From Nitrospirota bacterium (lineage in GTDB: Bacteria > Nitrospirota > Thermodesulfovibrionia > Thermodesulfovibrionales > UBA1546), in contig JACPZK010000017.1 in the NCBI GenBank assembly GCA_016195565.1, positions 1-64,000 of the forward strand: 64,000 bases of DNA, written 5' to 3'. Position numbers and translations under genes: made by a program. The notes under the pieces were generated by a model. It searched no databases and was not told the origin of the DNA. It saw only the letters and a program-made list of their open reading frames with translations. Positions 9,546-63,146 of this stretch are shown here, one piece after another (position 1 is the stretch's first letter; each line of letters begins with the position of its first letter).

Positions 9546-11093
9546 ATGAACTTGAAGGCGCTTATAAAAGATATGGAGATAAAAGAGATGACAGGCAGCA
9601 CGGATATTGAGATAACGGGAATCGCCTATGACTCAAGAAAGGTCAAGGCAGGCGATGTCTTTGTTGCCGCAAAGGGCGAAAAGTGTGACGGCCATGATTT
9701 TATCAGTGATGCGGTTAAGAAAGGCGCAGTTGCAGTAGTGCATGAAGAACATGAGAATAAGCTTTTAGCTGACAGCTATCAGCTTACAGCTATCAAAGTC
9801 AGTGACAGCAGGAAGTCTCTCGCGTATCTTTCCAATAATTTTTATGAGAGGCCGTCCGATAAGTTGACTGTCATTGGCGTAACTGGAACTAATGGAAAGA
9901 CAACGGCAACGTATCTTATAAAGTCCATTCTTGAGGTATGGGGAAAAGATGCCGGGCTGATAGGCACTATAAATTATCTCGTGAAAGACAGGCATTATGA
10001 CGCCCCTCATACCACGCCTGAGGCGCTTGAGTTTCAGGCTGTATTGAACGAGATGGTTTCAGCGGGGTGCAGCCATGTAGTGACAGAAGTATCATCCCAT
10101 GCGCTTGCTCAGAAGCGGGTGGACTATACGGGTTTCAGTGTTGCAGTTTTCACAAATCTTACAAGAGACCATCTGGATTTTCATATAACGATGGAGGAAT
10201 ATTTCAGGGCAAAGGAAAGACTGTTTAAAGAACTTCTTTTGAAAGACGGGACGTCTGTAATAAATTTTGACGATATATGGGGAAGAAGATTAATCTCTGA
10301 ACTCCGAACTCCGAACTCCGGACTTAAAGATGTGCTGACATACGGCATTGAAGCAGGAGCGGATATTGTTGCAGAGAATATTAAAAACTCATTTGACGGA
10401 CTTATGTTTGATATTAATTTCAACGGCAGGACATACAATGTTCAGTCTCCGCTTATAGGTATTTACAATGTCTACAACATACTCTCTGCCATAGGCGCTG
10501 CCGTGAGCCTGAATGTGCCGTGGGATATGATAATAAGCGGAATAAAGAATATGGATTCTGTAAAGGGAAGATTTCAAAAGGTTGACTTCGGACAGAATTT
10601 TCTCTGCATAGTTGACTATGCTCACACAGAAGATGCGCTTGAAAGGCTGATATGCGCTGCCAGAGAACTGATAAAACAGTCGGGAGTCGGGAGTCGGGAG
10701 TTTTCAAACTCCGAACTCCGAACTCCGAACAGTCCACGTATTATTACTGTCTTTGGCTGCGGCGGCGACAGGGACAGGGGAAAGAGGCCGCGAATGGCAG
10801 CGATAGCAACAAAACTGAGCGATTATGTTGTGATAACCTCTGATAATCCACGCAGCGAAGAACCTATGGAGATAATAAAAGAGATAGAGAAGGGCGCATT
10901 GAGGATGAATTATACAATTGAACCCGACAGGGAGAAGGCTATTCAAAAGGCGGTGGAGGCTGCAGAAGAAGGCGATATACTCCTGATTGCAGGAAAGGGC
11001 CACGAGGATTATCAGGAGATAAAAGGCTTAAGGCATAAATTCAGCGACATGGAGATAGCGGAGAAAGCGATAAGGAGATTATGGCGATTTTGA
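9546..11093 (+). CDS. murE: UDP-MurNAc-L-Ala-D-Glu:meso-diaminopimelate ligase
   Basis: Adds the third residue to the peptidoglycan stem in the cytoplasm. P-loop GVTGTNGKTT, TTPEAL, EVSSHAL and CGGDRDRGKRP are present. TSDNPRSEEP is the DNPR motif associated with meso-DAP rather than Lys. 515 residues, longer than usual. The excess matches three in-frame repeat insertions, near residues 74-84, 252-260 and 378-396, all in places expected to be loops. It overlaps murF by 13 nt. Confidence 0.93.
   Translation: MNLKALIKDMEIKEMTGSTDIEITGIAYDSRKVKAGDVFVAAKGEKCDGHDFISDAVKKGAVAVVHEEHENKLLADSYQLTAIKVSDSRKSLAYLSNNFYERPSDKLTVIGVTGTNGKTTATYLIKSILEVWGKDAGLIGTINYLVKDRHYDAPHTTPEALEFQAVLNEMVSAGCSHVVTEVSSHALAQKRVDYTGFSVAVFTNLTRDHLDFHITMEEYFRAKERLFKELLLKDGTSVINFDDIWGRRLISELRTPNSGLKDVLTYGIEAGADIVAENIKNSFDGLMFDINFNGRTYNVQSPLIGIYNVYNILSAIGAAVSLNVPWDMIISGIKNMDSVKGRFQKVDFGQNFLCIVDYAHTEDALERLICAARELIKQSGVGSREFSNSELRTPNSPRIITVFGCGGDRDRGKRPRMAAIATKLSDYVVITSDNPRSEEPMEIIKEIEKGALRMNYTIEPDREKAIQKAVEAAEEGDILLIAGKGHEDYQEIKGLRHKFSDMEIAEKAIRRLWRF
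9767..9794 (+). repeat. In-frame single-arm heptamer repeat in murE (word AGCTATC)
   Basis: Four 7-bp words: AGCTGAC, AGCTATC, AGCTTAC, AGCTATC. Translated in murE as part of LLADSYQLTAIK. The same kind of peptide (SCQLSAIS) appears in Ddl. Confidence 0.75.
10299..10325 (+). repeat. In-frame single-arm heptamer repeat in murE (word GAACTCC)
   Basis: Three perfect GAACTCC words plus a degenerate fourth, translated as SELRTPNSGLK in murE. The same SELRTPNS peptide is encoded again 125 codons later. Confidence 0.8.
10678..10734 (+). repeat. In-frame two-armed heptamer repeat in murE
   Basis: Three GTCGGGA words, a short TTTTCAAA spacer, then three CTCCGAA words. The arms are near-complementary (TCGGGAG against CTCCGAA). 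Translated as QSGVGSREFSNSELRTPNS without a stop. Confidence 0.85.
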
Positions 11094-12493: not shown

Positions 12494-13565
12494 TTTTCTT
12501 TACAGTCTGAACACATGGTTTTCACCGCTGAATGTTTTCAGATATATAACATTCAGGAGCGCGCTTGCAGTTCTTACGGCAATGCTTATTACATTTATCC
12601 TCGGGCCGAAGGTTATAAAAAGGCTCGGCAGGTTCAGTGTAACGCAACAGGTGAGAGATGACGGTCCTCAGACGCATCTTGGCAAGACAGGGACCCCCAC
12701 GATGGGCGGAGTCCTCATAATAATCTCTATACTTGTCACCGTTCTCCTGTGGGGCGACCTTACCAATAAATATATACTGACAATGATTTTTTCTCTTGTG
12801 GGTTTCGGAACGATAGGCTTTATCGATGATTATCTTAAGGTTGTAAAGAGAAATCCTAAAGGGCTGCGCGGCTGTTATAAATTCGGGGCGCAGGCGCTTC
12901 TTGCCTTAGCGATAAGCATGTTTATTTACATGAACCCTAAAGACCCTTACAATGATGTTCTGAGCATTCCGTTTTTTAAAAAATGGCTTTTTGATCTCGG
13001 ATGGTTCTATGTGCCGTTTTCTATTATTGTTATCGTAGGGTCCTCCAATGCAGTCAATCTCACGGACGGCATAGATGGCCTTGCTGTGGGCCTTGTCGGG
13101 ATTTCGGTGCTTGCCACAGGGATACTTGTTTATATATCCGGCAATTTCAAATTTTCACAATACCTGCAGGTTCTTTATATCCCGGGCACAGGAGAGCTGA
13201 CTGTATTTTGCGGCGCTATTCTTGGAGCATCTCTCGGTTTCCTCTGGTATAACTCATATCCGGCGGATGTGTTTATGGGAGATGTCGGCTCTCTGTCTCT
13301 CGGCGGCGTGCTCGGAACGCTTGCTGTAATAACAAAACAGGAGATAGTGCTTGCGGTTGTGGGAGGAATTTTTGTCATAGAGACGCTCTCGGTTGTGTTT
13401 CAGGTCGCAGCGTTCAAGTTAACAGGAAAGAGGATGTTCAGGATGGCTCCAATACACCATCATTTTGAACTCAAGGGATGGCCTGAACCGAAAGTTATAG
13501 TCAGATTCTGGATAGTCGGAATAATGCTGGCTCTTCTGAGCCTTGCAACATTAAAGCTGAGGTGA
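12483..13565 (+). CDS. mraY: Phospho-N-acetylmuramoyl-pentapeptide transferase
   Basis: A multi-pass membrane enzyme making lipid I from UDP-MurNAc-pentapeptide and undecaprenyl phosphate. Family motifs: GTPTMGGVLI, FIDDYLKV (catalytic Asp pair), NAVNLTDGIDGLA, and APIHHHFELKGWPEPKV. 360 residues, with about ten hydrophobic segments. It starts 11 nt before the murF stop. Confidence 0.96.
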   Translation: MLYNFLYSLNTWFSPLNVFRYITFRSALAVLTAMLITFILGPKVIKRLGRFSVTQQVRDDGPQTHLGKTGTPTMGGVLIIISILVTVLLWGDLTNKYILTMIFSLVGFGTIGFIDDYLKVVKRNPKGLRGCYKFGAQALLALAISMFIYMNPKDPYNDVLSIPFFKKWLFDLGWFYVPFSIIVIVGSSNAVNLTDGIDGLAVGLVGISVLATGILVYISGNFKFSQYLQVLYIPGTGELTVFCGAILGASLGFLWYNSYPADVFMGDVGSLSLGGVLGTLAVITKQEIVLAVVGGIFVIETLSVVFQVAAFKLTGKRMFRMAPIHHHFELKGWPEPKVIVRFWIVGIMLALLSLATLKLR

Positions 13566-13567
13566 TT

Positions 13568-14644
13568 ATGAAAACAAAGTTAAGAGTTAAGAGTTTAGAG
13601 TTAAAAGTTAAGAAAAGAATTTTTTTCATTTTATTTTTTTCACTTTTCACTTTTCACTTTCAACTTTCAACTTGCCTTGCTGATGAGATTTCCTCAAAGG
13701 CAGCATTTGTTATGGAGGCTTCAACAGGCAGGGTCCTGTTTGCAAAAAATCCAAATCTGAAACTGCCTCCTGCAAGCACAACTAAACTTGTGACTGCCAT
13801 GGTTGTTCTTGACAGGGCTAAGATGAGCGATACAGTGACAATCAGCGAGGCAGCGGCGAATGTGCCTTCGCTCAAGGAGACTAAACTGAGGGCAGGAGAG
13901 ACTTTGACTGTAGAGACTCTTCTTTACGCAGCGCTTATAAGGTCGGCAAATGACGCCGCCTTTGCGCTTGCAGAGGTTGTTGCCGGCTCGGAGAAAAAAT
14001 TCGTGCAGCTTATGAACAGAAAGGCTATTGCAATCGGAGCATCCAATACAAAGTTTATAAATACTACAGGACTTCCCGGGAAAGGCCAGCATACAACAGC
14101 ATATGACCTCTCAAAGATAATGAGACATGCCCTTAAATATCCTGTGATAAAAGAGATTATAGGCAAGAAAGAGGCAGAGATATCCACGAAACAGGGCAGG
14201 ACTATAGCCCTTGAAAATACGAACAAACTTCTATGGTCTGATAACGGAGCAGTCGGCGGCAAAACAGGATATACGAAAGCGGCAAGGCATTGTTTTGTGT
14301 ACGCCGGTGAAAAAGAAGGCGAGCTGGTGATAGTCGCTCTTCTTGGAGCGCAGAGCAGGGAGCTTTTATGGAATGAGGCAGAGAAGCTCGAAACAAAAGG
14401 TTTTGCCGTTATTGCAAGCAATGAGCAGCCGGTTGTTTATTTCACAAAGGCGGATTATAAGAAGACTGCAAAAATAAAGTCGTATCAGAAAACTGATAAA
14501 GAAAGGTCTGCCAAAGTTACATCAAAAAAGAAGCTGAATAAGGCAAAGACCACTAAAAAGGACAATGATAGTCCTGCAAAGGAGAGCAAAAAAGCAAAGG
14601 ATCAAGGTATTGCTAAAAACGTGGCATATGGAAATAAAGGATAA
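13568..14644 (+). CDS. dacA: D-alanyl-D-alanine carboxypeptidase (PBP5/DacA type)
   Basis: A periplasmic class C low-molecular-weight PBP that trims the terminal D-Ala. ASTTKL gives Ser70-x-x-Lys73, SAN is at 126-128 and KTG at 232-234 (numbered from the ATG at 13568, which follows GAGG). The C-terminal 60 residues are Lys-rich (KKLNKAKTTKK...). The whole signal peptide is encoded by a heptamer-word inverted repeat: the left arm gives the basic n-region, the right arm the hydrophobic FSLFTFHFQLSTCLA. Its insertion between mraY and murD is unusual for a dcw cluster. Confidence 0.9.
   Translation: MKTKLRVKSLELKVKKRIFFILFFSLFTFHFQLSTCLADEISSKAAFVMEASTGRVLFAKNPNLKLPPASTTKLVTAMVVLDRAKMSDTVTISEAAANVPSLKETKLRAGETLTVETLLYAALIRSANDAAFALAEVVAGSEKKFVQLMNRKAIAIGASNTKFINTTGLPGKGQHTTAYDLSKIMRHALKYPVIKEIIGKKEAEISTKQGRTIALENTNKLLWSDNGAVGGKTGYTKAARHCFVYAGEKEGELVIVALLGAQSRELLWNEAEKLETKGFAVIASNEQPVVYFTKADYKKTAKIKSYQKTDKERSAKVTSKKKLNKAKTTKKDNDSPAKESKKAKDQGIAKNVAYGNKG
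13574..13674 (+). repeat. Two-armed heptamer repeat forming the DacA signal peptide
   Basis: Left arm: AGTTAAG, AGTTAAG, AGTTTAG, AGTTAAA, AGTTAAG words (13576-13612). Right arm: CTTTTCA, CTTTTCA, CTTTCAA, CTTTCAA words (13640-13674). Codons are KTKLRVKSLELKVKK, then a T-rich spacer giving IFFILFF, then LFTFHFQLSTC. Confidence 0.85.
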
Positions 14645-16079
14645 GAATATACTTGTTTTCGGCCTTGCAGAGAGCGGTGTTGGCGCTTCAAATCTGCTTG
14701 CACGTTTTGGCGCAAAGGTAACGGTTACTGACAGTAAACCAAAGGAAGCGTTAATAAAATATGTTGAAAGGCTTCTGCCTGCGGTAAGGCTCAGTCTTGG
14801 CGGGCATCCTGATGGGATACTGCGAGGCGTGGATATGATAGTGCTAAGCCCCGGTGTGCCGCCTGACATCCAGCCGTTGAAGAAGGCAAAGGAGATGGGG
14901 ATAAGGATTATCGGCGAACTTGAACTTGCGTATCAAGTGATAAATTCAAAGTTCAAAATTCAAAGTTCAAAATTTCTGGCAATAACAGGGACTAATGGGA
15001 AATCAACCACTACAACATTATTAAACGAGATGTTAAATAAAGGAGGCTTCAGGACAATTCTGGGAGGGAATATAGGGAATGCCCTGACAGAAGAGATATT
15101 TGGATTAGTCAGAAGTCAGAAAACCGATGATGATTTTCTGATAACTCTTAACTCTCAACTCTCAACTCTTAACTACGTGGTCGTTGAGGTGTCAAGTTTT
15201 CAGCTGGAGGCAATAGAGATGTTCAGGCCTGCCGGAGCAGCTATCCTCAATATCACGCCTGACCATATGGACAGATACCATTCAATGGAAAAATACAAAG
15301 ACGCAAAGGCGCAGATATTCGCAAACCAGAGGGAAGGAGATTTCCTGGTCCTTAATGCGGATGACATAGAAACGATGAGATTATACGATTCAAGATTCAA
15401 GATTCAAGATTCAAGATTACCTGATGTATATTTCTTCAGCCGTAAGAAAGCGGTAGAAGGGGTCTACTTTAAAGACGGAGTTATTTATTCTAACTTCAAC
15501 TCTTCACTCTTAACTCTTAACTCTCAACTTATTCGTGCTGATGAGATAAACATTAAAGGTGTTCACAACATGGAGAATGCCATGGCTGCTTCGGCCATGG
15601 CTCTCCTTGCAGGATGTCCGGCAGAGGCAGTTGTAAGCGCCTTAAAAGATTTTGAGGGGCTTGAACACCGTCTTGAACTTGTCAGGGAATTTGAAGGCGT
15701 GGATTACATCAATGACTCAAAAGGCACGAATGTGGATGCGGTGGTAAAGTCGCTTGAGAGTTTTTCAAGGCCTGTAATCCTGATTGCAGGCGGAAGAGAC
15801 AAAGACGGAGATTTTTCTCTTCTGAGTTCTCTCATAAAAAGCAGAGTAAAAAAACTCGTTCTCATCGGAGAGGCAAGGGAAAAAATAAAAGAATTTCTCG
15901 GCGGACTGACAGAGACCATATTTGCGGATAATCTGGAAGAAGCTGTGATGCTAGCCAGAAAATCAGCGTCAAAAGGCGATGTTGTGCTCCTCTCTCCCGC
16001 ATGCGCAAGTTTTGATATGTTCAGGGATTACAAAGACAGGGGAAAGCAGTTTAAAAAGATTGTGAAGGGTTTATCCTGA
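14628..16079 (+). CDS. murD: UDP-MurNAc-L-alanine:D-glutamate ligase
   Basis: Adds D-Glu to UDP-MurNAc-L-Ala. The start at ATG 14628 (MEIKDKNILVFGLAESGVG) gives the usual N-terminal Rossmann fold; it overlaps dacA by 17 nt. P-loop AITGTNGKSTTT, EVSSFQLE, NDSKGTNVDA and IAGGRDKDGDF are present. At 483 residues it is longer than usual because of four in-frame heptamer repeats, near residues 106-116, 161-182, 254-264 and 288-301. The first lies immediately before the ATP-binding loop. Confidence 0.93.
   Translation: MEIKDKNILVFGLAESGVGASNLLARFGAKVTVTDSKPKEALIKYVERLLPAVRLSLGGHPDGILRGVDMIVLSPGVPPDIQPLKKAKEMGIRIIGELELAYQVINSKFKIQSSKFLAITGTNGKSTTTTLLNEMLNKGGFRTILGGNIGNALTEEIFGLVRSQKTDDDFLITLNSQLSTLNYVVVEVSSFQLEAIEMFRPAGAAILNITPDHMDRYHSMEKYKDAKAQIFANQREGDFLVLNADDIETMRLYDSRFKIQDSRLPDVYFFSRKKAVEGVYFKDGVIYSNFNSSLLTLNSQLIRADEINIKGVHNMENAMAASAMALLAGCPAEAVVSALKDFEGLEHRLELVREFEGVDYINDSKGTNVDAVVKSLESFSRPVILIAGGRDKDGDFSLLSSLIKSRVKKLVLIGEAREKIKEFLGGLTETIFADNLEEAVMLARKSASKGDVVLLSPACASFDMFRDYKDRGKQFKKIVKGLS
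14943..14975 (+). repeat. In-frame heptamer repeat in murD (AATTCAA/AGTTCAA)
   Basis: Words AATTCAA, AGTTCAA, AATTCAA, AGTTCAA, AATTT, translated as NSKFKIQSSKF directly before AITGTNGKST. The strict 7-bp period is visible by eye. Confidence 0.85.
15108..15174 (+). repeat. In-frame composite heptamer repeat in murD
   Basis: GTCAGAA, GTCAGAA, then a CAGAAAA/TTTTCTG stem, then CTCTTAA, CTCTCAA, CTCTCAA, CTCTTAA words. Translated [20 protein letters not shown], then LNYV. Left and right words do not match, suggesting a mosaic of two elements. Confidence 0.8.
15387..15418 (+). repeat. In-frame heptamer repeat in murD (GATTCAA)
   Basis: Four perfect GATTCAA words plus GATT, translated as DSRFKIQDSRL. 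No interruption and no stop in the murD frame. Confidence 0.88.
15490..15530 (+). repeat. In-frame heptamer repeat in murD (CTCTTAA)
   Basis: CTTCAA, CTCTTCA, CTCTTAA, CTCTTAA, CTCTCAA words, translated [14 protein letters not shown]. The peptide NSQL recurs in the other murD insertion and twice in the P-type ATPase. Confidence 0.83.
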
Positions 16080-16080
16080 G

Positions 16081-17253
16081 ATGAATAAAACGTATGACAG
16101 ATGGTTTTTGTTAATCACGTTTTTCCTGCTGGGCCTGGGGGCGCTCATGATATACAGTTCAACGGCAGTTGTATCCCCGGCCATGTCAAAAAAAGATGTG
16201 ACGCAGTTTTTTTATTTTAAGAGGCATCTGTTTACGATGCTGCTCGGATTTGCGGCAATGTTTTCCGCTTACAGATTGAGGACTGAGACTCTGAATAAGA
16301 CAGCAGTGCCTTTGCTTATATTTTCCTTTCTGCTTCTTGTTCTTGTCTTTGTGCCGGGAATGGGAATATCGGCAGGCGGAGCAAAAAGATGGTTAAGACT
16401 CTGGCCGTCAACCTTTCAGCCTTCCGAGCTGGTCAAACTTTCAATGGTTATATTCCTTGCTAAATATATGTCGGCATATAATTACAGGACAGACAGCTTT
16501 GTCTCTTTTGCAAAACCTATTGCAGTTATGGCAGTGTTTCAGGCCATATTTCTCAAACAGCCTGACTTTGGCGCTGCTATAAGCCTCGGTATTATTACAC
16601 TTGCCATGTTGTTCTTTTCAGGCATAAGGATGAGATATCTGCTGTCCCTAACAGTGTTCGCAATTCCTGTAATAGTAAAGCTTGTGCAAGAACCGTACAG
16701 ATGGAAGCGTGTTACATCTTTCCTTAATCCATGGGAGGACCCTCAGGGAAGCGGCTTTCAACTTATACAATCGTTTATTGCCCTCGGCAGCGGAGGCATT
16801 AAAGGAGTCGGTCTTGGTGAAAGCAAACAAAAACTGTTATTCCTGCCTGAAACCCATACTGATTTTATTTTTTCGCTTGTCGGCGAGGAACTCGGACTGA
16901 TAGGCGCGGGTGTAATTATTTTGCTGTTCGTGATGTTGTTTGTGAGGGGGATAGCCGTGACTAACAAGGCTAAGGACAGCTTTGTATATTATCTGTCTTT
17001 TGGCCTTTCAATAATGATTGCGCTTCAGGCGCTGATAAATTTCTCTGTTGTAACAGGGATGATTCCTACAAAGGGGCTTCCTTTGCCGTTTATAAGTTAT
17101 GGGGGGTCAGCTCTGCTCGTGAATATGGCGGCAGTAGGCATTCTTCTTAATCTTTCAAAAGGGGAAGACAGCAGAAGAGTCGTTGACAGGACAAAAGAAC
17201 TGGTAATGAGAAAAAAGGCGTTAAGGGCGGTATATGGGAACAAACAATTTTAA
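16081..17253 (+). CDS. ftsW: Septal peptidoglycan glycosyltransferase FtsW (SEDS family)
   Basis: A polytopic SEDS glycan polymerase working with FtsI at the septum. About ten transmembrane segments. Motifs: GAKRWLRLWPSTFQPSELVKL, KQPDFGAA and PLPFISYGGSALL near the end. 390 residues. It starts one nt after the murD stop region and carries no repeat insertion. Confidence 0.95.
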   Translation: MNKTYDRWFLLITFFLLGLGALMIYSSTAVVSPAMSKKDVTQFFYFKRHLFTMLLGFAAMFSAYRLRTETLNKTAVPLLIFSFLLLVLVFVPGMGISAGGAKRWLRLWPSTFQPSELVKLSMVIFLAKYMSAYNYRTDSFVSFAKPIAVMAVFQAIFLKQPDFGAAISLGIITLAMLFFSGIRMRYLLSLTVFAIPVIVKLVQEPYRWKRVTSFLNPWEDPQGSGFQLIQSFIALGSGGIKGVGLGESKQKLLFLPETHTDFIFSLVGEELGLIGAGVIILLFVMLFVRGIAVTNKAKDSFVYYLSFGLSIMIALQALINFSVVTGMIPTKGLPLPFISYGGSALLVNMAAVGILLNLSKGEDSRRVVDRTKELVMRKKALRAVYGNKQF

Positions 17254-17322
17254 GTTGAAAGTTGAAAGTTTAAAGTTGAAAGTTCTGAAAACTTTTCACT
17301 TTTCACTCTTCACTTTTCACTT
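17251..17322. repeat. Heptamer-word inverted repeat between ftsW and murG
   Basis: AGTTGAA, AGTTGAA, AGTTTAA, AGTTGAA, AGTT in the left arm; CTTTTCA, CTTTTCA, CTCTTCA, CTTTTCA in the right. It occupies the entire spacer, so the murG translation start lies just beyond the right arm. Confidence 0.85.
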
Positions 17323-18509: not shown

Positions 18510-19901
18510 GTGTTTGAGCAATACAGGATAATCCACTTTGTCGGCATCGGAGGAATAGGGATGAGCGGGATAGCAGAGGTTCTTCATAACCTCGGCTACG
18601 AAGTTACAGGCTCGGATGTTAAGGAGTCTGATACGACAAACAGGCTGAACAGCCTCGGCATAAAGGTAGATATCGGACACAGAGCGGAAAATGTTGATGA
18701 TGCCCATGTTGTGGTTATATCCTCTGCTGTTTCTAAGGACAATGCCGAGGTGATGGAGGCAAAAAGAAAGTCAATCCCTGTAATCCCGAGAGCTGAGATG
18801 CTCGCTGAACTTGCAAGGATGAAATACGGGATACTGGTAGCAGGCGCGCATGGCAAGACAACAACGACTTCGTTAATCGCAACAGTGATTGCAAGCAGCG
18901 GCCTTGACCCTACAGTTGTTATAGGAGGAAAGCTCAGGTCTACAGGAAGCAATGCAAGATTGGGGCAGGGAGATTTCCTTGTGGCAGAGGCTGACGAGAG
19001 CGACGGTTCATTCCTCAGGCTTTCTCCGACCATCGCAGTTGTGACGAATATAGACAGGGAACACATGGATTTCTTTAAGACAATGGATTCATTGAGAGAT
19101 GCTTTTCTGTCTTTCATAAATAAAGTCCCGTTTTATGGAGTGTCGATAGTATGCATTGAAAATGAGGAGCTTTGTAAACTGCTGCCTTATGTGCACAGGC
19201 GATATATCACATACGGACTCTCGCCTGACTCTGATGTGTATGCTGCTGATATAAAGAAAGGGTTTATGACAGTGAGTTTTGACGTCGTGTATAAAGGGGA
19301 AAATCTCGGCAATTTCAGCCTGCCTGTGCCCGGCGTGCATAACATCCTCAACAGTCTCGCAGCAATAGTAACTGCAAGGGAATTGAAGATAGAGACAGGC
19401 GTAATAAAAGAGGCTCTGAAAAAATTCAGCGGGATACAGAGGAGATTTGAATTAAAAGGAGAGGAAAAAGGGATAAAAGTTTTTGACGACTATGGACATC
19501 ATCCTACCGAAATAAAAGCGACTCTGAATGCGGCAAAAGATGGCCTTCTGGCCCGGCAGGGCGCAGGGAGATTATTTGTTATATTCCAGCCTCACAGATA
19601 TACGAGGACCAAAGACCTTATGGATGAGTTTACATCCTGTTTTTCTGAAGCTGACATTCTTTGCTTGATGGACATATATTCTGCGGGTGAAAAACCGATA
19701 AATGGCATTGATTCCAATGCGCTGCTTGACCGCATCAAAAAAACAGGGCATAAGGATGCCGCTTATTTTCACGACAGAGAGAAACTCATGGATAATCTTC
19801 TTATGAGATTGAAAAACGGAGACGTGGTTTTCACTCTCGGCGCAGGAGATGTCTGGAAACTCGGCGAGGAGATATTGGAAGAATTAAGAATTAAGAGTTA
19901 A
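18510..19901 (+). CDS. murC: UDP-N-acetylmuramate:L-alanine ligase
   Basis: The first Mur ligase step, adding L-Ala to UDP-MurNAc. It starts at GTG 18510 after AAGGAGCGGG. FVGIGGIGMSGIAE, GAHGKTTTTSL (P-loop), EADESDGSF and DDYGHHPTEI are the family motifs. 463 residues. The last codons (ELRIKS) and the murB ribosome site come from a short AGTTAAG-type repeat (19879-19905). Confidence 0.95.
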   Translation: MFEQYRIIHFVGIGGIGMSGIAEVLHNLGYEVTGSDVKESDTTNRLNSLGIKVDIGHRAENVDDAHVVVISSAVSKDNAEVMEAKRKSIPVIPRAEMLAELARMKYGILVAGAHGKTTTTSLIATVIASSGLDPTVVIGGKLRSTGSNARLGQGDFLVAEADESDGSFLRLSPTIAVVTNIDREHMDFFKTMDSLRDAFLSFINKVPFYGVSIVCIENEELCKLLPYVHRRYITYGLSPDSDVYAADIKKGFMTVSFDVVYKGENLGNFSLPVPGVHNILNSLAAIVTARELKIETGVIKEALKKFSGIQRRFELKGEEKGIKVFDDYGHHPTEIKATLNAAKDGLLARQGAGRLFVIFQPHRYTRTKDLMDEFTSCFSEADILCLMDIYSAGEKPINGIDSNALLDRIKKTGHKDAAYFHDREKLMDNLLMRLKNGDVVFTLGAGDVWKLGEEILEELRIKS

Positions 19902-19908
19902 GAGTGAA

Positions 19909-20844: not shown

Positions 20845-20852
20845 TATACCCG

Positions 20853-20985
20853 AAAAATAGACATAGAAAATTGTCATTGCGAGTGAAACGAAGCAATCTC
20901 GCCTTTTGCGATGAGATTGCCACGAACCCTTCGAGTTCTCGCAATGACAGGTAATTCAAGCGTTTATAGTTCTATGTCTATTTTT
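20853..20985. repeat. Nested double palindrome between murB and ddl
   Basis: An outer stem, AAAAATAGACATAGAA (20853-20868) with TTCTATGTCTATTTTT (20970-20985), encloses an inner TGTCATTGCGAG/CTCGCAATGACA stem (20872-20883, 20938-20949). The outer stem ends in a T-run, so it could terminate. The inner part looks like a mobile TCATTGCGAG element inserted into an older hairpin. Confidence 0.85.
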
Positions 20986-21002
20986 TGGTCACTTGAATAC
21001 TT

Positions 21003-21941
21003 ATGCTGACTGATAGAAAGATAGGCGTTTTAATGGGCGGCATATCCAGAGAGAGAGAGGTTTCGCTGAGAAGCGGGAGTGCGGTTTTCAATGCCCTGAA
21101 AAAACTCGGGTATACCGCTGTTGCGATAGATGCGGCGTCAAACATATGCGAGGTGTTGAAAAAGGAGAAGATTGATATAGCATTTCTTGTTCTTCACGGA
21201 GGCTGGGGAGAAGACGGCTCTATACAGGGGCTTCTTGAAGTTATGGGAATTCCTTACACAGGGTCTGATGTCCTTTCTTCGGCGATTGCAATGAACAAGG
21301 CGGCGTCAAAGAAGATATTCTTTTATCACAGAATTCCAGCGCCGCCATTCATAGTTCTTGATAAGAAGGCTGTCAGCTGTCAGCTATCAGCTATCAGCTT
21401 TGAAATGCCGTGGGTTGTCAAACCTGTATGTGAAGGGTCAAGCGTTGGGGTGAGCATAGCAAGAGATAAAGGACAGATTGAAAGCGCGCTCAAGACCGGG
21501 TTCTCATACGGCAGCGAGATAATCATAGAAAAATATATAGAGGGCAAGGAAGTCCATGTAGGGATTCTTAATGACAGGGCGCTCGGAGGTGTTGAGGTAA
21601 AGACATCACTTGAATTTTACAGCTACGAGGCAAAATACACAGCAGGTTTAACTGAATATATACTCCCTCCTAAAATAGATGAAGCACTGTATATGAAGGC
21701 AAAAGATATTGCCCTTTCAGCGAACAGAGCGCTCGGTTGTTCAGGAGCGACAAGGGTTGATTTGAGGATTGATAATGACGGCAATCCCTATGTGCTTGAA
21801 GTTAACACAATACCGGGCATGACAGAAACAAGCCTCTTGCCGAAGATTGCAAAGGAGGCGGGGTTTGATTTCCCTGCGCTTGTGGAGGAGATTCTTAAAG
21901 ACGCAATTGAAAGAGAGCAGAGAAGGCATTATGAGGAATAA
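21003..21941 (+). CDS. ddl: D-alanine--D-alanine ligase
   Basis: An ATP-grasp ligase giving the D-Ala-D-Ala used by Mur[59 protein letters not shown] and [18 protein letters not shown] are family motifs. 312 residues. An in-frame heptamer repeat (residues about 123-133, [10 protein letters not shown]) sits between KKA and FEMPWVVKP. It overlaps ftsQ by 11 nt. Confidence 0.95.
21369..21400 (+). repeat. In-frame heptamer repeat in ddl (GCTGTCA/GCTATCA)
   Basis: GCTGTCA, GCTGTCA, GCTATCA, GCTATCA, GCTT, translated [11 protein letters not shown]. Four full words with one substitution separating the two pairs. Confidence 0.88.
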
Positions 21942-24070: not shown

Positions 24071-24151
24071 AAGTTAAAAGTTGAAAGTGAAAAGTTAAAG
24101 GTTCAAATTCTTTTCCGAAAACTTTTAACTGTTAACTCTAAACTTTTAACT
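24071..24151. repeat. Heptamer-word inverted repeat between ftsA and ftsZ
   Basis: AGTTAAA, AGTTGAA, AGTGAAA, AGTTAAA words on the left, CTTTTAA, CTGTTAA, CTCTAAA, CTTTTAA on the right. The spacer ends in AAGGGGGTG, the ftsZ ribosome site. The mRNA hairpin would lie just upstream of ftsZ translation initiation. Confidence 0.85.
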
Positions 24152-41020: not shown

Positions 41021-42118
41021 CTACGTGAAAGATATGCTTAACCTCGTTCGCATGTCAATAATTTGTGTATAGTGTCCCCAGAATTGTGTCATTGTAAAAA
41101 GAGAACAAAAAGAGAACAAAAAGAGAACAAAAAGAGAACAAAAAGAGAACAAAAAGAGAACAAAAAGAGAACAAAAAGAGAACAAAAAGAGAACAAAAAG
41201 TGAATATAAACTGCTCATTAATTTTTTTATAGCCTTTTGTCCGTCTATGTTTTTAGCCACTTTTGACGATTTTGACAGTGTAGAAAGATCACGGTTGAGA
41301 ATCGGCTGCAAATCAGTCATTTTCAAGCCGCACTCCCTCCACAGGCTTACCAGCAAGCCACGCGCAAAGACAGCTTTCGCGCTTCTGCCTCTTGAAATAA
41401 TCTCATCACGCCCTACGCCTGTTTCCTTTTCCAACGCATTGAATAGCGCCCCTGCTGACGGCTTCCTCCTTGGTTTCACTGCCCGATCCGTTTCTTTTTC
41501 CACTTTTTCTATAAATTTCTCATCACCTAATATTTGCTGCTCTGTGGCTTTATAAAATGAATCGTTCTTGCCGGAGTTGATAGCCTCATTAACAAAACGG
41601 TTGTATAACTGCCTTGCCTGAGATTTGTTTTCAGAAAAAAGACGCAATGCCCTGTCAACATCTATAAGCCCGCTTCCACGGTTTATGTAATCGCTGTGTC
41701 CGCTCCATCTGTATTCATCAGGTGCTGCGGCAAGCATAGCCCTAACAGGATTCAGATGGATATACCTGAGAAGTGCCAAAAGATATTCGTCTTTGTCGCA
41801 AAGATACGACTTGTATCGCCCCTGAAAAAGGTGTCCGACCTTGCCGTATTTTCTGTTGAAATACTGAGTGTAGGTAAAACTGAGCATTTGCATGATTTTT
41901 GATATAGGAGCATCAGGGGTTTCTATGAGCAGGTGAACATGATTGGACATCAGAACATAGGCGTCGAGGATAAAGCCGCACTTCTGTTTGTACCGTTTCA
42001 ACAGGTCAAGATAAGCTATCCTGTCGCTGTCGCCTAAAAAAATGGCTTGTCTTTGATTGCCCCTTACAATTACATGGTAAAAGGCGTTTGGAAATTGTAT
42101 GCGAGGAGGTCTTGCCAT
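41021..42118 (-). CDS. REP-associated tyrosine transposase (Y1, HUH) with DnaA-like C-terminal domain
   Basis: MARPPRIQFPNAFYHVIVRGNQ start, HUH pair in LMSNHVHLLIETP, and the catalytic Tyr segment FTYTQYFNRKYGKVGHLFQGRYKS. The second half (about residues 195-300) is a helix-turn-helix module resembling the DnaA C-terminus (KETGVGRDEIISRGR...MTDLQPILNRDLSTLSKSSK). The last 55 residues are abnormal: SLFVLFLFSFC repeated from an 11-bp tandem array, then direct-repeat sequence. The true end is probably near residue 310. Confidence 0.88.
   Translation of the reverse strand: MARPPRIQFPNAFYHVIVRGNQRQAIFLGDSDRIAYLDLLKRYKQKCGFILDAYVLMSNHVHLLIETPDAPISKIMQMLSFTYTQYFNRKYGKVGHLFQGRYKSYLCDKDEYLLALLRYIHLNPVRAMLAAAPDEYRWSGHSDYINRGSGLIDVDRALRLFSENKSQARQLYNRFVNEAINSGKNDSFYKATEQQILGDEKFIEKVEKETDRAVKPRRKPSAGALFNALEKETGVGRDEIISRGRSAKAVFARGLLVSLWRECGLKMTDLQPILNRDLSTLSKSSKVAKNIDGQKAIKKLMSSLYSLFVLFLFSFCSLFVLFLFSFCSLFVLFLFSFCSLFTMTQFWGHYTQIIDMRTRLSISFT
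41035..41093. repeat. 59-bp direct repeat, left copy, flanking the first transposase
   Basis: Identical over 59 bp to 42191-42249. Begins TGCTTAACCTCGTTCGCATG and contains GTGTCCCCAGAATT. This copy overlaps the transposase 3' end and the other lies upstream of its start, so the gene sits between direct repeats 1,156 bp apart. Confidence 0.9.
41096..41205. repeat. 11-bp tandem array, nine perfect units plus one degenerate
   Basis: AAAAAGAGAAC repeated nine times (41096-41194), then AAAAAGTGAAT. It is read on the minus strand as an 11-residue hydrophobic repeat. Eleven is not a multiple of three, so a change in unit number changes the downstream frame of the transposase. Confidence 0.95.
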
Positions 42119-60343: not shown

Positions 60344-60428
60344 TTCAGACAGAGGATCAGTCGTCATATAAATCATAAAAAGAAATGGTTCCCTCAGGAA
60401 CTGTTTGATTAATTCTAAAGGGGCATAT

Positions 60429-63146
60429 ATGCGCTGGCACCAGAAAGAGACTAAAGATATATTAGACGGCCTGCAGTCGTCTTCAAAAGGGCTTTCTTCA
60501 GAAGAGGCGCAGAAGCGGCTGCTCGAATATGGCCCGAATGAATTAAAGGAAAAAGAAAAGAGAACTCTTTTTATGATGTTCCTTGGCCAGTTCAAGGACT
60601 TCATGATACTCATCCTTATCGGAGCTGCAATAATTTCCGGCATTATCGGCGAACCCGCGGATACCATAGCCATTATAGTAATCGTTGTCCTTAATGCCGT
60701 CATAGGATTTATTCAGGAATACAGGGCAGAAAAGGCGATGGCAGCATTGAAAAAAATGGCAGCGCAGATTGCCACTGTAATAAGAGATGGAAAGCCTGCA
60801 AATATCCCCGCAGTAGAAATTGTTCCGGGCGACATTGTATTGCTTGAGGCAGGGAAGGTAGTTCCGGCTGATATGAGGCTGATAGAAACCGCACAGTTGA
60901 AAGTTGAAGAGGCAGCCCTTACCGGCGAATCTATCCCGGTAGAAAAACATATAAAGGCATTGCATGACGAGATGCTGCCGCTTGGTGACAGAAAAAATAT
61001 GGCATACAAAGGCACTACCGTGTCTTACGGCAGAGGCGCCGGTATTGCAGCGGCTACCGGGATGGACACCGAGCTTGGAAAGATTGCAACCATGCTTCAG
61101 GAGGAAGAAGAGGTCAAAACACCCCTTCAAAAAAGGCTCGCTGCATTTGGGAAGAAGCTTGCCATTGCTGTGCTTGCAATATGCGCAATTGTTTTTGGTA
61201 TCGGGATATTAAGAGGTGAACAGCCCTTGCTGATGCTTCTGACCGCCATATCCCTTGCCGTAGCAGCGATTCCTGAAGCGCTTCCGGCTGTGATAACCAT
61301 TTCCCTTGCCCTCGGCGCAAAGAAGATGGTTAAGCAGAATGGCCTGATAAGAAAGCTCCCTGCTGTTGAGACCCTCGGCTCCGTCACATACATATGCTCC
61401 GACAAGACAGGGACGCTGACACAGAACCGGATGAGTGTGGAAGAGATGTATATAGGCGGGGAAATACTTAAAAGTGAAGAGTTAAAAGTTAAAAGTGGGA
61501 GAATAGAACAACTCTTAACTCTCAACTCTCAACTCTCAACTTTTTTCACTGCAATTGCTTTAAGCAATGACGCGAAACCTGACAGGGACGGCAATATCAT
61601 CGGCGATCCTACAGAGGTAGCTCTTTTTTCTGCTGCCAGAGAAAACGGATTCGATAAGTCTTCGCGTGAAGAGTTGTTCCCGAGAGTTGAGGAGATACCG
61701 TTTGATTCCGAGAGAAAATGCATGACGACATTTCATGAAGTGAAAAGTGAAAAGTTAAAAATTAAAAGTGAAGAATTAGAGAAGCTTTTAACTCCTAACT
61801 CCCAACTTCTAACTTTCAACTTTGTTTCTTTCACAAAAGGCGCTATTGAAGTTCTTCTGGAAAAATCAGACGGCATCCTCAAATCAGGCGGGACAGTAAA
61901 GATAGACAGGGAAGAGATTCACAGAGTTAATGAAAGGATGGCTGCTGACGGACTCAGGGTTCTCGGCATTGCAATGAGGGGATGGAATGAGCTTCCCTCA
62001 GACATGTCCCATGAGAATGTGGAAAGAGGGCTTATAATCATAGGCCTTGTAGGAATAATGGACCCTCCGAGGGAGGAGGCAAGGGAGGCAGTGGCAATGT
62101 GCCAAACTGCAGGGATAAAACCCGTTATGATTACAGGAGACCATCCGATTACAGCATGGGCAATTGCGCGGAGGATTGGAATGCTTGGAGATGAGGATGT
62201 AAATTTCAACCTTATAACAGGGAGGGAGCTTGAAAAACTCTCTCTTAAGGAATTTGAAGAGAGGGTTGAGAACATTCAGGTCTATGCCCGTGTTGCGCCA
62301 GAACAGAAACTGAAGATTGTGAAGGCGCTTCAGGACAAGGGACAGTTTGTTGCAATGACAGGAGACGGTGTGAATGATGCTCCTGCATTAAAGAGAGCGG
62401 ACATCGGCGTTGCAATGGGGATTACAGGAACAGACGTCTCAAAAGAGGCTGCTCATATGATACTCCTTGATGATAATTTTGCCACTATAGTGAAGGCTGT
62501 AAGAGAGGGCAGAAAGATATATGACAATATAAGAAAGTTTATAAAGTACCTTCTTACAACAAACTCAGGAGAGATATGGACCCTCTTCCTCGCACCCCTT
62601 GTCGGCTTGCCGATTCCGCTTCTGCCGATCCATATACTCTGGATAAACCTTGTTACAGACGGGCTTCCTGCCCTTGCCCTCTCTGCCGAGCCTGCAGAGG
62701 GAGATGTGATGAGCGGGCCTCCGAGGCATCCGAAGGAGAGCATATTTGCCCACGGATTAGGACTACATGCCATATGGGTGGGTCTCTTGATGGGTGGAGT
62801 TGTTCTGTTTGTCCAGGCATGGTCTATCAAAACTGAACATGCCCATTGGCAGACAATGGTGTTTACCGTTCTCTGCCTGACACAGCTCGGCCATGTCCTT
62901 GCCATAAGGTCTGAGAGGGAGTCGTTATTTAAAATCGGATTGTTTTCGAATAAATATCTCCTCGGCGCAGTGATATTTACATTCATCCTGCAGATGGCGA
63001 CTATATATGTGCCTTTCTTAAATCCCATATTCAAGACAGAGCCGCTTACTTTAAATGAACTGGTGTTTACACTCGTCCTGTCATCTGTGGTATTCTTTGC
63101 AGTGGAAATAGAAAAATTAATCAGGAGGCGGAGATGTCGAATATAG
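60429..63146 (+). CDS. P-type Ca2+-transporting ATPase
   Basis: 905 residues from ATG 60429 after AAAGGGG. Cation ATPase N-terminal domain ([14 protein letters not shown]), A domain with [10 protein letters not shown], helix 4 [10 protein letters not shown] typical of Ca2+ pumps, phosphorylated Asp325 in [34 protein letters not shown] and C-terminal helices. Two heptamer repeats are inserted in frame in the nucleotide-binding domain (about residues 348-372 and 437-465). Confidence 0.92.
61469..61545 (+). repeat. In-frame two-armed heptamer repeat in the Ca-ATPase (first)
   Basis: AGTGAAG, AGTTAAA, AGTTAAA, AGTGGGA words on the left; CTCTTAA, CTCTCAA, CTCTCAA, CTCTCAA on the right. Translated [16 protein letters not shown], then TLNSQLSTF, without a stop. 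Confidence 0.88.
61738..61823 (+). repeat. In-frame two-armed heptamer repeat in the Ca-ATPase (second)
   Basis: AGTGAAA, AGTGAAA, AGTTAAA, AATTAAA, AGTGAAG on the left; CTTTTAA, CTCCTAA, CTCCCAA, CTTCTAA, CTTTCAA on the right. Translated [18 protein letters not shown], then [11 protein letters not shown]. Same frame and peptide type as the first. Confidence 0.88.

Follow-up and report, generated by a model that had tools for sequence, protein, structure and literature searches.

We analysed a 64,000-nucleotide stretch of DNA (the window) from a draft genome of 2.30 Mb in 33 contigs, which is 99% complete and whose nearest named relatives are Nitrospirota metagenome-assembled genomes (MAGs), including one with the label Thermodesulfovibrionales. 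Within the window is a dcw cluster comprising a PBP gene, murE, murF, mraY, a D-Ala-D-Ala peptidase gene, murD, ftsW, murG, murC, murB, ddl and ftsA, of which mraY and murG were assigned by translation only and the remaining genes by NCBIfam. The murD gene (14628–16079, forward strand) encodes a UDP-N-acetylmuramoyl-L-alanine--D-glutamate ligase of 483 amino acids. It scored 426 bits (E 1.7e-127) against the NCBIfam profile TIGR01087, which has a cut-off of 212, and was the only murD above this cut-off in the whole genome. The invariant and conserved columns of the MurD ligase were kept in the alignment. An AlphaFold model, with a 46-sequence alignment as input, had a pLDDT of 91.4, and its fold matched those of solved MurDs with a TM of up to 0.90 by target.

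Four arrays with a period of seven bases were located in murD with Tandem Repeats Finder and by direct reading (all on the forward strand), each in frame and free of stops, as an earlier sequence-only reading of this DNA had claimed. Segment S1 (14942–14974) consists of AAATTCA/AAGTTCA units and encodes the peptide INSKFKIQSSKF at residues ~105–116 (lag-7 permutation p = 0.001). It lies in the linker or strand leading into the P-loop GTNGKS (121–126) and ends ~6 residues ahead of its first Gly, in agreement with the earlier placement directly before the P-loop. Segment S2 (15105–15176; residues ~160–183; lag-7 permutation p = 0.001) comprises two AGTCAGA units (15107–15121), a spacer and a TAACTCT/CAACTCT array (15142–15174). 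It had been described as a single element, but actually consists of two short inverted stretches with a poor predicted RNA fold. Segment S3 (15387–15418; residues ~254–264) contains 4.6 copies of GATTCAA and reads DSRFKIQDSRL. Segment S4 (15491–15529; residues ~289–300) is an AACTCTT/AACTCTC array in the loop of a beta-hairpin; it can be read as 4.6 heptamers over 15498–15529 or as a 14-mer array over its full length. RNA structure was rejected as a conserved feature of the MurD segments, since the folding of S1–S4 was no better than that of shuffled sequences (z = +1.2 for S2). Furthermore, none of the Rfam families matched at the murD locus.

The AlphaFold model places S1–S4 between elements of secondary structure, and the ten-residue blocks that hold them have a locally lower confidence of ~73–87. 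The exception is part of S2 (residues 167–179), which was modelled as a helix. Each segment adds ~7–18 residues relative to solved MurDs, and the phmmer alignment to the solved MurD 3lk7 opened long gaps at their positions. In outgroup MurDs (L042–L048) the S1–S3 loops were short and had no insert, while S4 exceeded the outgroup loops by only ~8–10 residues. Because of these gaps, the short outgroup loops, and the length variation and periodicity among relatives, we interpret S1–S4 as added or expanded DNA at old sites. That an essential enzyme tolerates such insertions, as had been argued, is supported in part, by the single murD, the intact conserved columns, the gaps against 3lk7 and the short S1–S3 loops in the outgroups. 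An intact second murD, or close relatives with the same segments in ordinary DNA, had been named as grounds against the earlier reading; neither was found, in the 99%-complete genome and among the relatives compared, respectively.

We compared 30 murD genes of the order. They have variable segments at the S1–S4 sites, many of which hold period-7 DNA made up of other heptamer words. Lag-7 identity was 0.50, 0.44, 0.46 and 0.33 at S1, S2, S3 and S4, respectively, versus 0.25 elsewhere in murD, with further peaks at lags 14 and 21. The sites are common to the family and partly to the order, and congeners carry different words there; the four are not events confined to this genome, a point that the earlier reading had missed. 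At S1, the word AAATTCA is common to the genome studied here, G001 and G006, while other members of the genus have AAGTGGC (G007), GGGGTTA (G002), GGTCAGA (G004) or a C-rich palindrome (G003). Other genera have AATCAGC, AGAGAGC, GATACAC/ATCATGC, ATAGTTC or AAGCGGC. In total, ~12 array or palindrome types occurred at S1 among the 30 species, and in one relative (L032) the segment was nearly absent (MSRPLP).

Within the genus, the DNA of the murD core was 86–93% identical, but identity over all columns averaged only 0.36 in S1 and 0.30 in S2, which indicates that the arrays were replaced rather than having slowly diverged or drifted. The murD tree requires at least 11, 11, 5 and 7 changes of word at S1, S2, S3 and S4, counted for arrays only and with words assigned by eye. 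S3 and S4 are older alleles common to several species. The identity of S3 between congeners was at least 0.87 over aligned bases when they had the same word and otherwise mostly ~0.45–0.6, while it was 0.67–0.77 among three carriers of AAGTGAA. S4 was nearly identical in G000, G001 and G006. The S2 segment of G006 is 42 nt shorter than that of G001, with 21 nt (three units) missing from each arm, which we regard as direct evidence of in-frame slippage. These comparisons revealed no insertion event marked by both a clean empty site and a duplicated target; replaced sites differed across the entire interval bounded by conserved residues.

Palindromes of other kinds were nested in several arrays (at S1 and S3 in G001, and at S3 in G013). 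In G001 (L007) and G013 (L013), which belong to different genera, the same CTCGCCTCAGGCGAG-type palindrome lies at the same point of the S3 GATTCAA array with similar flanks, a match that points to exchange of genes or to an ancient insertion nested there. Searching with a strict pattern for the CTCGCC palindrome gave zero matches. One might suppose that the arrays are old and that their words spread by homologous exchange of murD segments between species, so that the turnover is allele exchange. The nested palindrome common to G001 and G013 would fit this explanation, as would the mixing of the two main S3 allele classes (GATTCAA and AAGTGAA) across the tree. However, between congeners with 86–93% core identity, changes at S1 and S2 follow neither one another nor those at S3 and S4, and exchange tracts would therefore need to be very short. 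Moreover, the variety of types at S1 alone argues against exchange, which we regard as an unlikely explanation. Still far less probable is an artefact of assembly or binning of a metagenome-assembled genome, to which we give hardly any weight: a draft genome of 33 contigs and the error-prone assembly of tandem repeats speak for it, but arrays occur at the same sites in six other members of the genus from separate assemblies, the frame is open in all six, and S4 is nearly the same in G000, G001 and G006.

All 56 arrays detected in the 30 murD genes fell within the S1–S4 sites, which make up 18% of the gene, although this count is partly circular and overstates the surprise, as the sites were delimited after viewing the alignment and the species are related. 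All 56 were open in the frame that is read. Stop triplets numbered 0, 37 and 44 by phase, the zero in the read phase being what is expected of any open reading frame, and the main murD matches in the relatives contained no stop. Since a period of seven runs through all three phases, the units must lack stops in the phase that is read; in the S2 and S4 units, CAA takes the place of TAA.

We then place murD in the context of its genome, using a sample of 413 kb that included 349 kb from other contigs, together with whole-genome pattern searches. A single detector found 42 arrays with period 7 in the 413 kb, against seven with period 8, one or two each with periods 9–11, and none with periods 4–6 and 12. 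Markov versions of the window yielded no arrays at any period, and hence the repeats claimed for murD are far above chance. At a looser threshold there were 67 period-7 arrays, 30 of them within ORFs, 12 overlapping ORF ends and 25 in intergenic DNA, while ORFs made up 88% of the DNA. Array density was 40.6 per 100 kb in the window versus 11.8 in the sample from other contigs (Poisson p ~1e-7). Among 31 pairs of arrays separated by up to 40 nt, 28 were inverted, two were tied and one was direct, and the purine-rich arm came first in all 31. Complete inverted pairs outside murD are predicted to fold into stable hairpins (z = −3.2 to −4.9). The arm words within a pair are related but not identical, and therefore each arm seems to be homogenised on its own. 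Arrays with period 8 (AGAGCAGC / CTACTGCG type) were also observed in this genome, at L130, L137, L146 and L147; some form inverted pairs, in an architecture like that of the heptamers. Many different heptamer arrays were also present in contigs (L048, L049) that cover the dcw region in a deltaproteobacterium and in a Desantisbacteria MAG, which extends the class beyond Nitrospirota.

Other sites in the dcw cluster carry arrays as well (forward strand), and at ~ten sites outside murD, that of the dacA signal peptide among them, the words change in a similar way between conserved flanks. In murE, a AGCTGACAGCTATC repeat of 7/14-mers is located at 9767–9795, where G002, G003, G004 and G007 have other sequences, several of them repeats; an in-frame CTCCGAA array lies at 10295–10324, where relatives have non-array DNA of other length; and an inverted heptad pair (AGTCGGG / AACTCCG; 10678–10730; RNA fold z = −4.3) is read in frame. 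The latter pair is absent from G001 and G002, which have a short non-repeat version, and a complete in-frame pair also occupies the homologous murE site in G003, G004 and G007. Comparison of G001 and G002 with the genome studied here thus offers a good candidate for an empty and a filled site. The inverted pair AGTTAAG ... TTTTCAC (13574–13676; RNA fold z = −4.9) encodes the signal peptide of the dacA-like D-Ala-D-Ala peptidase (13562–14644). This is the most striking of these sites: in most congeners examined the signal peptide is made of different repeat words, yet its basic segment and the hydrophobic one after it are kept. Downstream of murD, the intergenic inverted pair AAGTTGA / ACTTTTC between ftsW and murG (17252–17322; RNA fold z = −3.2) has a different word in most congeners, an AAGAATT array marks the 3' end of murC (19879–19905), an in-frame GCTATCA array in ddl (21369–21399) is replaced by other words in G002, G003 and G004, and the intergenic inverted pair AAGTTAA / AACTTTT (24071–24151) lies between ftsA and the next gene.

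Outside these sites, an ORF of 914 amino acids (60405–63146) contains two inverted heptamer pairs (61470–61541 and 61738–61823), both in frame and with four arms in all. A repeat of another kind, with 9.9 copies of an 11-base unit at 98% identity (41096–41204), is located inside a Y1 transposase ORF (41021–42118, minus strand). Furthermore, the gap between murB and ddl holds an insertion of ~158 bases with inverted ends (GACATAGAAA...TTTATAGTTCTATGTC; 20845–21002) and a MITE-like look, which is absent from G001, G003, G004 and G007, where there are only a few bases.

The density of repeat-derived peptides in murD had been called unusual. MurD was indeed the densest gene in the sample, but it was not alone, given the three sites in murE, the two arms in dacA and the four arms in the 914-aa ORF. 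Because a similar pattern runs along the dcw cluster, we consider MurD to be the best example of a genome-wide class rather than an isolated oddity.

The peptides might have been selected for a function, such as protein contacts or flexible linkers, with the repeats as a mere source of variation. In favour of this, the reading frame is strictly kept and stops are avoided, the model has a helix in part of S2, and in dacA an element supplies a needed segment. Nevertheless, S1 and S2 vary widely between congeners in both amino-acid sequence and length, and some relatives are almost without a segment, as at S1 of L032. We find selection for function very unlikely; most likely, the inserts have no useful function in the MurD enzyme.

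The single-armed form of S1, S3 and S4 bears on how the DNA arose, because these segments could therefore be local expansions rather than inserted elements. Local slippage alone, in which 7-base units were duplicated within each loop and the resulting words have no link to repeats elsewhere, would explain the single arms and the whole-unit changes of the arrays, and could by itself yield many words. In contrast, the GATTCAA word of S3 is dispersed over ~ten places in its own genome and occurs in G002, G003, G005, G007 and G013, and a few word classes recur at many loci. Moreover, simple slippage does not make the many inverted pairs of fixed polarity, and no other period from 4 to 12 was comparably favoured. 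On balance, it is doubtful that slippage alone produced the segments.

We therefore favour, with a probability of roughly 0.7, the interpretation that each MurD segment represents an in-frame copy, or one arm, of a dispersed element built of 7-base words, resides in a permissive loop and would be translated as extra loop residues. According to this interpretation, the elements would often land, or be copied, throughout the genome. Within genes, the survivors would be insertions with a length that is a multiple of three, free of stops in the phase that is read, and situated in tolerant loops. After landing, an array would gain and lose units by slippage, and the site would stay open to further insertion or replacement, nested palindromes included.

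Two candidate enzymes were considered and rejected. A Y1 transposase as mobiliser was dismissed since arrays lie near one of the seven Y1_Tnp genes, no more than genome density predicts. A telomerase-like reverse transcriptase as writer of the heptamers was dismissed since a search for the family RVT_1 found no member in the genome. Hence, no mobilising enzyme is indicated. More tentatively, it is possible that an undescribed process writes or replaces repeat tracts at fixed sites, and does so repeatedly on the same loops of essential genes across a bacterial family. Such a process would keep the architecture (period 7 and sometimes 8, inverted arms, the purine-rich arm first) but not the sequence.

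These results imply that repeat DNA has probably replaced itself repeatedly inside a working murD gene. With a near-constant core, four fixed sites and up to a dozen words per site, murD provides a natural series for studying how repeat DNA enters essential enzymes and is exchanged within them, and in dacA such DNA supplies a signal peptide. For annotators, the findings serve as a warning that peptides such as KLKVKSEKLKVK in bacterial proteins can derive from repeats. Over-represented heptameric repeats have been noted in many bacteria since 2007, but have hardly been studied and lack a detailed literature (PMC4692102); their origin now becomes testable in one locus. In the open-access papers that were searched, we found no description of such arrays in Nitrospirota.

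Among known heptamers, the TAACTGA repeats of Beggiatoaceae (MacGregor 2015, PMC4679880) are tandem and dispersed, with few in ORFs and one at the very end of MurG. They consist of one word that is found chiefly ahead of start codons, and heptamers related to it are rarely or never repeated (PMC4679880), whereas the arrays described here use many words and often lie inside genes. Tandem TAACTGA pairs were absent from the 413 kb of own DNA and from the congener loci. The G-rich GGGNATC heptamers of Xanthomonas and Nostoc (Rehm et al. 2015, PMC4692102) resemble the present arrays in their heptameric unit, dispersal and variable unit number. They are under-represented in coding regions and form quadruplexes (PMC4692102), and no tandem GGGNATC pairs were found in the sampled own-genome DNA. 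REP elements with a RAYT (Y1) transposase are likewise not matched, as arrays lie near only one of the seven Y1 genes (see above). The palindromic amphipathic repeat coding sequence, which PMC2996958 outlines as protein repeat domains in Mollicutes and further microbes, is also palindromic repeat DNA read as protein across distant bacteria, a likeness by description in that source and not by sequence.

The closest precedent is provided by the Rickettsia palindromic elements (RPE; Ogata et al. 2000, described in PMC3767692 and PMC2229807), elements of 100–150 bp with a family consensus that are inserted in frame in ORFs. RPE-4, -6 and -7 occur at one locus in different species, and essential genes including that for DNA polymerase III alpha carry RPEs (PMC3767692). 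An RPE-containing Gmk (guanylate kinase; Abergel et al. 2006) is reported in PMC2229807 to be translated and active, and similar in-frame elements are known from Wolbachia (PMC3767692). For different RPE groups at one locus, the authors of PMC3767692 considered either hot spots of insertion or the divergence of a single ancient insert. Like RPEs, the MurD arrays are dispersed repeats in frame in conserved genes that they do not destroy, with different families at one locus, and insertion that keeps the frame was found at four sites, with no stops in the main matches of relatives. Unlike the palindromes in the RPE descriptions, the arrays measure ~27–40 nt and the pairs ~50–110 nt, inserts span ~20–120 nt, single arms are common, and the constant feature is the 7-base period, with the word left free and none shared. 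Their host, moreover, belongs to a Nitrospirota lineage known from environmental MAGs instead of Rickettsia. Hence, the MurD arrays fall outside the RPE, TAACTGA and GGGNATC families as these are defined, but by analogy they may be said to work like RPEs in ORFs, rather than to be RPEs.
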